Below, in pieces: positions 29,043-31,389 of a stretch of DNA of 46,495 nt (positions are counted from its first letter, which is position 1; every line of letters begins with the position of its first letter). This stretch comes from an uncultured Pseudomonadota bacterium (GTDB taxonomy: Bacteria > Myxococcota_A > UBA796 > SXON01). A program made the translations under genes and the position numbers. The DNA lies in the NCBI GenBank assembly GCA_903959175.1, contig CAJBVW010000249.1:1-46495 (forward strand), given 5' to 3'. The notes below the pieces were generated by a model, which saw only the letters and a program-made list of their open reading frames with translations, was not told where the DNA came from and did no database searches.

Positions 29043-30866
29043 ATGCTGTTGCTCCTGCTCCACGCCTGCGCGGGCCCGACGAAGGGGCCCCCCGTCGTCA
29101 ACGACTCGAACACGGGCGACTCCGGCGGCACGGACACCGACGATCCCGACGACACCGACACCGACGACACCGACCCCGACGACACCGGCGCGCCCCTCGC
29201 GGACGGCGACAACCTCGTCCGCCTCGGCGCCTGGATGGAGGACGAGGAGCGCACCCTCGTCGAGACGACCGGCGTGCTCGCCCTCGACGCCACCACGGTC
29301 GCGATGTGCATGGGCGCCCAGACGCTCGCCACCTTCGACCTCACGGATCCCGCCGCGCCGGTGCGCCTCGCCACCGTCCCCCTCCCGCGCCCCGCCGGCG
29401 GCTTCCGCTGCCAGCACCTCGCCACCACGGGGGACGGCCGCCTCCTCGTCGCCCACCACGGGGACGAGACCGGGCCCTCCTGGCTCGGCCTCGCGGACGT
29501 GCGCGATCCCGCCGCCCCCATCGGCCTCGCCGCGTGGGCCGGCCCGGCGGTCGAGCGCGTGGCCGCCGCGGGAAACACCGCCTGGGTCGCGGCGCACGAG
29601 GACGGGCTCCTCCGCTTCGATCTGTCGGCCGACACCCTCGATCTCCCCGAGCCCGTGCTCGGCGTGACCGGCAACGTGTACGCCGTCGCCCACCGCGCCG
29701 GCCGCGTGGCCGTCGGCACCGTCGAGGGGAGCCTCTTCCTCGTCGACGGCGACGTTGTCACCGGCCCCCTCGCGCTGTCCGGCCCGGTGCGGGACCTCGC
29801 CTGGCTCGACGACGGCGCGCTCGTCGCCGCGTGCGGCAGCGACGGCCTCGACCGCGTCGACGTCGACACGCTCACCGTCACCGCCCACGCCGACACCACC
29901 GGCACCGCGCTCGACGTGGCCGTCCTCTCCGACGGCGCGGTGGCGGTCGCGGGCTGGAGCGCCGTCTTCGTGCACGACGGCGGGTCCCTCGCGCTCCTCG
30001 GCGCGGAGGACCCCCGCACCCGCTCCACCCCCGGCATCGCGCTCGCCGTCGAGGCCTTCGGCGACGCCCTCCTCGTCGGCGAGTGGAACGGCCTGCTCAG
30101 CTACGCCTGGGACCCCACCGTCTCCGCCCCCGAGGTGAGGATCGACGCCACCCGCTTCGACTTCGGCGCGGTCGCCGCCGGCGAAGTGGACGCCCTCACC
30201 GTCGTCCTCCGGAACGACGGCCCCAAGCCGCTCACGATCACCGGCCTCTCCGTCGCGGACACCGCGGTGACCGTCGACCGCGCCGCCTTCACCATCCCCG
30301 CCGGGGGCGCCGACTTCGCGGAGCTGACGTGGTCCTCCACCGGCGGCCCGCTCAGCACCGCCCTGACGTTCGCTACAAACGATCCGGACGAGCCGACGGT
30401 CACCGTCTCCGTCGGCGCGAACCGCGTCGGCACCGGCCTCGGGGAGATGGTCCCCGCCTTCTCGTACACCGCGCTCGACTCCGCCGACGTCTACACCTCG
30501 CAGGCCCTCGGCCAACCGGCGCTGCTCTCGTACTTCGCCACCTATTGACCCGTCTGTAGTCTGGAGTTTCCAGACCTCGAAGCCTCCTTCCACCAGACCT
30601 ACCGCGACCGCGGGCTGCTCGTGCTCGGCCTCTCCGCCGGTGGCATGGCCGACGCGGACGACCTCCGCGCCTTCGCCAGCGCGAGCGGCGTGACCTTCCC
30701 CCTGCTCGAGGACACGGCCCACACGTATGACGAGTACACGCGCGACCCGACGGCTTCCCCGTATCCCATCGACATCGTGCTCGACGCGGACGGCGTCATC
30801 GTCTACTTCTCGCGCGAGTACGATCCGGTGGGCCTGCGCGCGGCGGTGGAGAGCGTGCTGCCTTAG
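29043..30866 (+). CDS. Putative selenoprotein: thioredoxin-fold lipoprotein with in-frame TGA (Sec502)
   Basis: Read through one in-frame TGA (30546-30548), this is a 607-residue protein. Parts: a very short lipoprotein-like N-terminus (Cys9), an Asp/Thr-rich linker (about 20-50), an LVIVD/PQQ-like beta-propeller (about 55-360), an ASPM-SPD2-Hydin type Ig domain (about 365-465) and a redoxin/TlpA-like thioredoxin fold (about 485-607). The TGA falls at the first position of the active-site motif: FATY-TGA-PVC, where relatives have CxxC. Downstream the frame is unbroken and keeps the strand LLVLGLSAGG, the cis-Pro region SPYPIDIVLDADG and the C-terminal helix. A SECIS-like hairpin follows the TGA. 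If Sec is not inserted, a 501-residue protein without redox domain results. Function inferred: extracytoplasmic thiol/disulfide or peroxide chemistry. A sequencing error changing TGC to TGA is the main alternative. Confidence 0.82.
30546..30575 (+). promoter_or_regulatory. Candidate bacterial SECIS element with recoded UGA
   Basis: The UGA (30546-30548) is followed by a perfect hairpin: GTCTGGA (30559-30565), loop GTT (30566-30568), TCCAGAC (30569-30575). The first loop base is G, 18 nt after the UGA. Published bacterial SECIS rules ask for an apical loop of 3-14 nt with G in the first two positions, at about 16-37 nt from the UGA, on a stem of at least 4 bp; all are met. In E. coli fdhF the corresponding GU lies about 20 nt after the UGA. 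SelB would bind here to deliver selenocysteinyl-tRNA. Confidence 0.78.
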
Positions 30867-30867
30867 C

Positions 30868-31389
30868 GTGCTCGTCGCGTGTGGCGATCCGCTCCCGACG
30901 GACACCGCCGCCGACGCCGCCGACACCGCCGACACCGCCGCTGACACCGCCGACACCGCCGCTGACACCGCCCCGCCCGCGTGGACCGGGTCGGACCTGT
31001 CCCTCCAGGACTGCGACGCGACGCCGCGCCCCCTCGCCTCGCTCGTCGGCCCCGCCGGGCTGGTGCTCGCCGTCGGCGCCGCGTGGTGCGGGCCGTGCCA
31101 GGAGGACGCCCCGGTGATGGAGGCGTTCCGCGCGGAGCACCCCGACATCGGCGTCGCGCAGGTGCTCGTCGAGGGGAGCGACGCCCAGCCGATCACCCGC
31201 CTCGAATGTGCGGAGTGGGCCGAGTCCTTCGCGCTCGGCTATCCCGTCCTCGTGGACCCCTTGTTCCTCACCGAGCCGTTGGTGGGCACGGACGGCTTCC
31301 CGGTGCACGTCGTGTTCGCGCCGGACGGGACGGAGGTGCTGCGCGCGCCCGGGGCCTTCGACGGCGCCGCGGTCCTCGCCGCGCTCTGA
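30868..31389 (+). CDS. Thioredoxin-like (redoxin) lipoprotein with CxxC
   Basis: A protein of about 173 residues. After a short Thr/Asp/Ala repeat linker (units of ADTAADT, about 11-35) comes a thioredoxin/TlpA-like fold with an intact active site GAAWCGPC (Cys74, Cys77), DAPVMEAF helix, the cis-Pro strand TDGFPVHVVFAPDGTE and a C-terminal helix. The start is GTG 30868, one base after the TAG of the selenoprotein candidate, which suggests re-initiation. This gives Met-Leu-Val-Ala-Cys, a lipobox-like end without a proper hydrophobic stretch; an earlier ATG at 30727 would add an Arg-rich stretch overlapping the upstream gene and looks non-coding. Secretion is therefore likely but not certain. 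Probably a redox partner or paralogue of its neighbour. Confidence 0.8.
   Translation: MLVACGDPLPTDTAADAADTADTAADTADTAADTAPPAWTGSDLSLQDCDATPRPLASLVGPAGLVLAVGAAWCGPCQEDAPVMEAFRAEHPDIGVAQVLVEGSDAQPITRLECAEWAESFALGYPVLVDPLFLTEPLVGTDGFPVHVVFAPDGTEVLRAPGAFDGAAVLAAL

Follow-up and report, generated by a model that had tools for sequence, protein, structure and literature searches.

In the bacterial pathway for selenocysteine (Sec), SelB together with Sec-tRNA-Sec binds a hairpin and brings Sec to the UGA codon (PMC13188914). The consensus model of these bacterial SECIS (bSECIS) elements, as given in excerpts of that paper, including the legend to its Fig. 2, specifies a loop of 3–9 nt, an upper stem of 4–16 bp and a distance of 16–37 nt between the UGA and the loop, with a G in loop position 1 or 2 that is followed mostly by G or U, and a minimum free energy (MFE) of -7.5 kcal/mol or lower. 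The same excerpts state that many bSECIS elements are unlike those of E. coli, and already tabulate redoxin-family selenoproteins with a UxxC motif (PF00578, PF08534). In the E. coli fdhF element, according to an excerpted account (PMC8659212), a 17-nt upper stem-loop lies about 11 nt from the UGA, the loop presents a G and then a U, and a bulged U17 is essential in the minimal element.

The locus described here lies within a window of 46,495 nt (the whole stretch of DNA that was analysed; contig CAJBVW010000249.1 of assembly GCA_903959175.1, from an uncultured bacterium placed by GTDB in Myxococcota_A). From upstream of 29043 to a TAG at 30864–30866, one plus-strand reading frame is interrupted only once, by a TGA at 30546–30548, and when this codon is translated as U there is no stop from 29007 to that TAG. 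The selenoprotein gene so defined (29043–30866, plus strand) would, if its TGA is decoded, specify 607 residues, and Sec would be number 502. The ATG at 29043 was picked by inspection as the likely start, and the N-terminus that it gives (MLLLLLHACAGP) is lipoprotein-like. A HYDIN/ASH-type Ig-like domain (30129–30416; PF22544, 26.4 bits, cut-off 25.5) lies upstream of an AhpC-TSA/redoxin domain with a UPVC active-site motif (30441–30806; PF00578, 53.1 bits, cut-off 26), which also matches PF08534 (40.2 bits). In alignments with the thioredoxin-like structures 2ls5 and 3or5 (ResA chains were matched too) the Sec position coincides with the leading Cys of CxxC, the resolving Cys of UPVC is encoded by the TGT at 30555–30557, and the protein would be expected to act in thiol-disulfide redox reactions at the cell envelope. 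It shares the PF00578/PF08534 domain, and a UxxC at the CxxC site, with the described Prx-like thiol:disulfide oxidoreductase/redoxin selenoproteins, but here the domain is C-terminal in a protein of about 600 residues, lipoprotein-like and placed behind an Ig-like ASH domain, and there are often several copies per Myxococcota genome. The Ig-like part (30147–30416, residues 381–470 of P0001) also gave a weak match to the NCBIfam OS_HP2 family (seleno)protein model (19.5 bits, cut-off 100).

Downstream of the TGA, GTCTGGA (30559–30565) and TCCAGAC (30569–30575) enclose a GTT loop (30566–30568), so that the hairpin occupies nt 11–27 after the TGA on the plus strand (30559–30575) and is exactly the perfect 7-bp stem and loop noted in the initial annotation. 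That annotation also placed the hairpin within the published bSECIS geometry, and it does agree with all five constraints of the model: the loop has 3 nt, the upper stem consists of seven Watson–Crick pairs, the loop begins with GU, the UGA-to-loop distance is 17 nt (the loop G being nt 18 after the TGA), and the MFE is -8.6 kcal/mol for the 17-nt hairpin and -11.1 kcal/mol for a stretch of 42–45 nt. None of the constraints in the excerpted model is broken, and upstream of the hairpin is an in-frame UGA aligned to the Cys of homologues. An Rfam scan of the window returned no match, which is uninformative.

The resemblance to the fdhF element, in the excerpted account cited above, extends to the size of the upper stem-loop (17 nt), its spacing from the UGA, and the loop G followed by U. 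The elements differ in that the stem is continuous here and has no bulged U17; among 39 distinct class-1 rows (the class of relatives, defined below, to which the window gene belongs), column 17 forms a pair in 38. Recognition by SelB would then presumably depend on the loop and stem alone. The G-U also lies at different positions, 23–24 in fdhF compared with 21–22 in class 1 and 22–23 in class 2, counting the UGA as 1–3. By analogy with the E. coli element (PMC8659212, excerpted account), the loop GUU at 30566–30568, with its G first and U second, is the expected site of SelB contact, and the loop G is present in 40/40 class-1 rows.

We consider it very probable (roughly 0.95) that the hairpin at 30559–30575 is a bSECIS element that guides SelB and Sec-tRNA-Sec to insert Sec at the UGA, giving a UPVC redoxin. 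SelB carrying Sec-tRNA-Sec would bind the apical loop via its C-terminal winged helices and would deliver Sec at UGA 30546–30548, and the predicted outcome is a lipoprotein-type redoxin whose redox centre is UPVC.

Viewed within the single sequence, the hairpin stands above chance only in part. The window contains 60 hairpins that pair perfectly over at least 7 bp and have loops of 3–9 nt; in eight the loop is 3 nt long. A 7-bp stem of bSECIS type in the permitted range occurs at 1.6–1.7% of 6634 sampled positions per strand, falling to 0.23–0.24% of sampled positions when the loop is at 16–18 nt, and such a stem follows 7 of 283 TGA trinucleotides on the plus strand and 5 of 295 on the minus strand. 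Among 20,000 synonymous randomisations, none had seven Watson–Crick pairs in range. The initial annotation had named a folding energy no better than that of shuffles with the same codons as a sign against the element, and for the 42-nt segment this was what was found (an MFE of -11.1 was equalled by 59% of synonymous randomisations), but for the core it was not: the native energy was matched or beaten in a fraction of 0.0000 (21-nt core) and 0.0001 (24-nt core) of 10,000 synonymous shuffles. The corresponding fraction for a 30-nt segment was 0.06, the dinucleotide z-score of the 42–45-nt stretch was only -1.08, and class-2 hairpins of relatives, taken singly, did not stand out from their synonymous shuffles (values 0.03 to 0.42). 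In a gene with 96% GC at third positions, bulk energy discriminates poorly. The case from this sequence is modest, and it is the comparison with relatives that settles the hairpin as a genuine bSECIS.

Codon use gives a sharper local signal in a gene with a GC3 of 0.96. The proposed comparison of codon adaptation with the rest of the gene places the hairpin lowest of all 611 nine-codon windows (start 30555, GC3 0.44), and several codons of the stretch are rare gene-wide, namely AGT (1/30 Ser), TTT (1/19 Phe), CCA (1/42 Pro), TGT (1/5 Cys), TAT (3/12 Tyr) and GAA (2/23 Glu). The initial annotation held that codon bias is lost exactly over the hairpin. The minimum is indeed at the hairpin, but 'exactly' slightly overstates the case, since three of the codons it named (TAT, TGT and GAA) fall outside the stem-loop. 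Nor is TGT preferred among class-1 relatives (TGC 27, TGT 10).

The redoxin domain was found in 354 of the 377 genomes of the phylum, and among the matches listed, at least 63, spread over 40 genomes, contain one in-frame TGA. Of these, 62 were extracted by tblastn (the window gene, L016, included) and form the rows counted below, while L086, a TGA member found by protein search, was read separately and enters only the loop-G count and the enlarged covariation set. All 63 have the TGA at the homologous codon. The resolving Cys is present in 62/62 TGA rows (classes 1 and 2 together), and 42 of the 62 are in protein alignment A3. As controls, 25 of the many Cys matches were used, and at the homologous codon these non-TGA rows have Cys in 25/25 cases. 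Counting G-U pairs, a stem of 6 bp or more whose loop starts with G was present within range in 59/62 TGA rows vs 4/25 Cys rows, and a full stem in the conserved register in 48/62 vs 1/25. The three deviating Sec rows are L057 (4 bp in register), L059 (5 bp) and L071 (a mismatch within the stem). The initial annotation would have been undermined by Sec homologues that lack a conserved stem-loop, but 59 of the 62 carry one, 6 bp or longer and spaced as published.

These relatives also bear on another explanation, in which the TGA genuinely ends translation, or marks a pseudogene or an error of sequencing, and the hairpin arose by chance or serves as a termination signal. Gene callers would end the gene at the TGA, and the window is, as noted, well stocked with perfect hairpins of this size. 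The TGA, however, aligns with a catalytic Cys, there is no T-run 3' of the hairpin, and a TGA recurs at this codon, followed by an open, homologous downstream half, in the matches and genomes counted above. We regard this as the least probable of the explanations considered, at the very edge of plausibility.

The bSECIS reading presupposes a decoding apparatus, and most of it was found in the genome: SelB (283.9 bits, above cut-off) with the winged-helix domains SelB-wing_2 and SelB-wing_3, SelD (272.1 bits), and one tRNA-Sec (62.9 bits, anticodon tca). Neither the SelA model nor that of SepSecS, the archaeal-type alternative to SelA, matched this draft genome. SelA is present in both same-genus genomes and scored above cut-off in 37 of the 42 genomes searched, and its absence is therefore taken as a gap in the 95%-complete assembly. 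Across the phylum, a tRNA-Sec score of at least 50 bits does not separate Sec carriers (28/39) from other genomes (31/40), in a tally made by hand with only 46 candidates scored per genome. The 11 carriers that have no good tRNA-Sec match are accounted for only in part by incomplete genomes and the few candidates scored.

An alternative in which the hairpin assists read-through of the UGA by a near-cognate tRNA or by ribosome pausing, and no Sec is inserted, is very improbable. In its favour, the identity of the inserted residue is deduced from sequence. Against it are the occurrence of Cys in every non-TGA row, a genome that encodes SelB, SelD and tRNA-Sec, and the fit of the geometry to the bSECIS model.

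The 62 TGA rows divide into two hairpin registers, a feature of this family that sets it apart from the consensus model, although each class satisfies that model. In class 1 (37/62 rows) the stem is either 7 bp long and capped by a GUU-type triloop, or 6 bp long with an AGUUN loop. Class 2 (25/62 rows) has a 6-bp stem and a four-base loop (GTCCGA-GGTC-TCGGAC), with a one-base shift on the 5' side. Among the matches listed, both classes occur together in at least five genomes (G082, G198, G214, G287 and G304), so a single SelB may recognise both. The class-2 loop, GGUC, resembles that of fdhF.

Covariation of the stem, a check suggested by the initial annotation, was scored for each class, and both scores exceeded those of 500/500 shuffles. 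In class 1, 94.4% of cells are paired and the covariation score was 0.183 vs 0.076 for shuffled alignments (0/500 as high), also above all slid versions, with pair 14-30 occurring as GC (28), CG (4) and AU (2), and pair 17-27 as UA (27), UG (5) and AU (3). Two measures that count pairs or pair types were unexceptional in this class (75/500 and 97/500 shuffles as high), which cautions against over-reading its covariation. In class 2, 99.2% of cells are paired and the score was 0.119 vs 0.021 (0/500 as high), with pair 15-30 as GC (19) or CG (1) and pair 18-27 as CG (18), GC (2) or UA (1). When L086 was added along with L124 and L133, the latter two biased towards the hairpin because a hairpin model had found them (they are in this enlarged set and in the tree but not in the 62), double changes appeared at four pairs and all measures topped 500/500 shuffles. 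The shuffles ignore the kinship of rows. On a tree built with the hairpin columns masked (123 columns, with many forks open), the pair type changed at least five times at 14-30, counting standard pairs only, and at least four times at 17-27.

Third codon positions tell the same story of constraint at the RNA level. Relative to expectations from each gene's own codon use, class-1 rows have T at the wobble position of codon 4 in 36/37 (3.9 expected), G at codon 5 in 37/37 (20.6 expected), T at codon 7 in 26/37 (3.8 expected) and A at codon 8 in 28/37 (2.9 expected). The signal is weaker at codons 2, 6 and 11 and absent at codons 12–14. In class 2, codons 4, 7 and 8 are fixed much as in class 1. 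In L021, L055 and L083 a Leu to Gln change in the 5' arm (CTG to CAG) is paired with CCA to CCT in the 3' arm, and the base pair is kept. The stem in relatives, the covariation and a wobble constraint centred on the hairpin thus bear out the original suspicion of selection on RNA structure rather than chance.

A third explanation is that the hairpin follows from conservation of the protein motif SLEFPD and plays no part as RNA. Codon 6 does encode Glu invariantly in Sec rows and in 20/25 Cys rows, and being shared by both it shows that part of the conservation is at the protein level. That this is the whole explanation is highly unlikely, given that the choice of third base is most extreme at codons 4, 5, 7 and 8, that the stem pairs covary, that class 2 has other residues (PSEVSD) yet still forms a hairpin, and that the Cys form L156 encodes the similar GLDLPD as GGC CTC GAC CTG CCC GAC, which is free of a hairpin.

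The two registers can be joined in one account, to which we give slightly better than even odds. There would be a single expanded selenoprotein family in which the SECIS was rebuilt in a second register (7-bp/GUU and 6-bp/GGUC), the hairpin rather than the protein would dictate the residues after Sec (SLE[FLV]PD vs PSEVSD), one SelB could serve both forms, and reversion from Sec to Cys would lift the constraint, leaving codons and residues to drift. Both the hairpin and the residues are lost in a Polyangium/Sorangium-type Cys clade that branches within the class-1 Sec rows. The only Cys row in full register is L044 (genome G232), which retains an intact class-2 hairpin and has a near-identical Sec form, L042 (G310), as its close sister; it looks like a recent Sec-to-Cys change. 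G232 also carries a Sec member, L124.

As a signal, the hairpin is of a known type, a textbook bSECIS by the five constraints and not a new kind. As far as the literature searched shows, what is new is a duplicated branch of redoxin selenoproteins in Myxococcota and its two SECIS registers; a search of one library for selenoproteins of Myxococcota or myxobacteria found no paper on this redoxin family. What began as a hunch from one sequence is now a well supported recoding signal, and gene calls made without Sec decoding would cut a repeatedly duplicated Myxococcota selenoprotein family at the UGA. The two registers, together with recent and old losses of Sec to Cys, form a natural series for probing the requirements of SelB, and for seeing how an RNA element within a gene shapes the encoded protein.

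The alignment query identified 11 loci in the genome contig collection, all Cys forms and none a Sec form; P0002 found no relatives in the genome contig or viral contig collections; and the five plasmid matches listed were all distant and TlpA/ResA-like. When the window's own genome was scanned with both hairpin models for further selenoprotein genes, the window site alone stood out (the rest had E values of 0.19 or more, and three of these weaker matches, L142–L144, were read as genes). In L125 (G100:C132:35632-35667) a hairpin-like stretch (model R1, 22.2 bits, E 0.024) comes after a TGA, and the translation of that frame does not appear thioredoxin-like; this is probably a chance match and possibly another recoded gene.

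Several Sec redoxin genes lie close together. Among the matches listed, L055 (G304:C915) and L070 (G287:C161) are tandem Sec paralogues: one 7.5-kb contig bears at least three Sec redoxin genes, and a second contig has at least two, separated by about 1.9 kb. In the window itself, the gene following the Sec redoxin (30868–31386) has a GTG start 1 nt past the TAG, an ADTA-type low-complexity repeat near the N-terminus of its product, and a Cys-type thioredoxin-like domain (AAWCGPCQED; PF00578, 27.0 bits), so that a Sec redoxin gene and a Cys redoxin gene adjoin (29043–30866 and 30868–31386).
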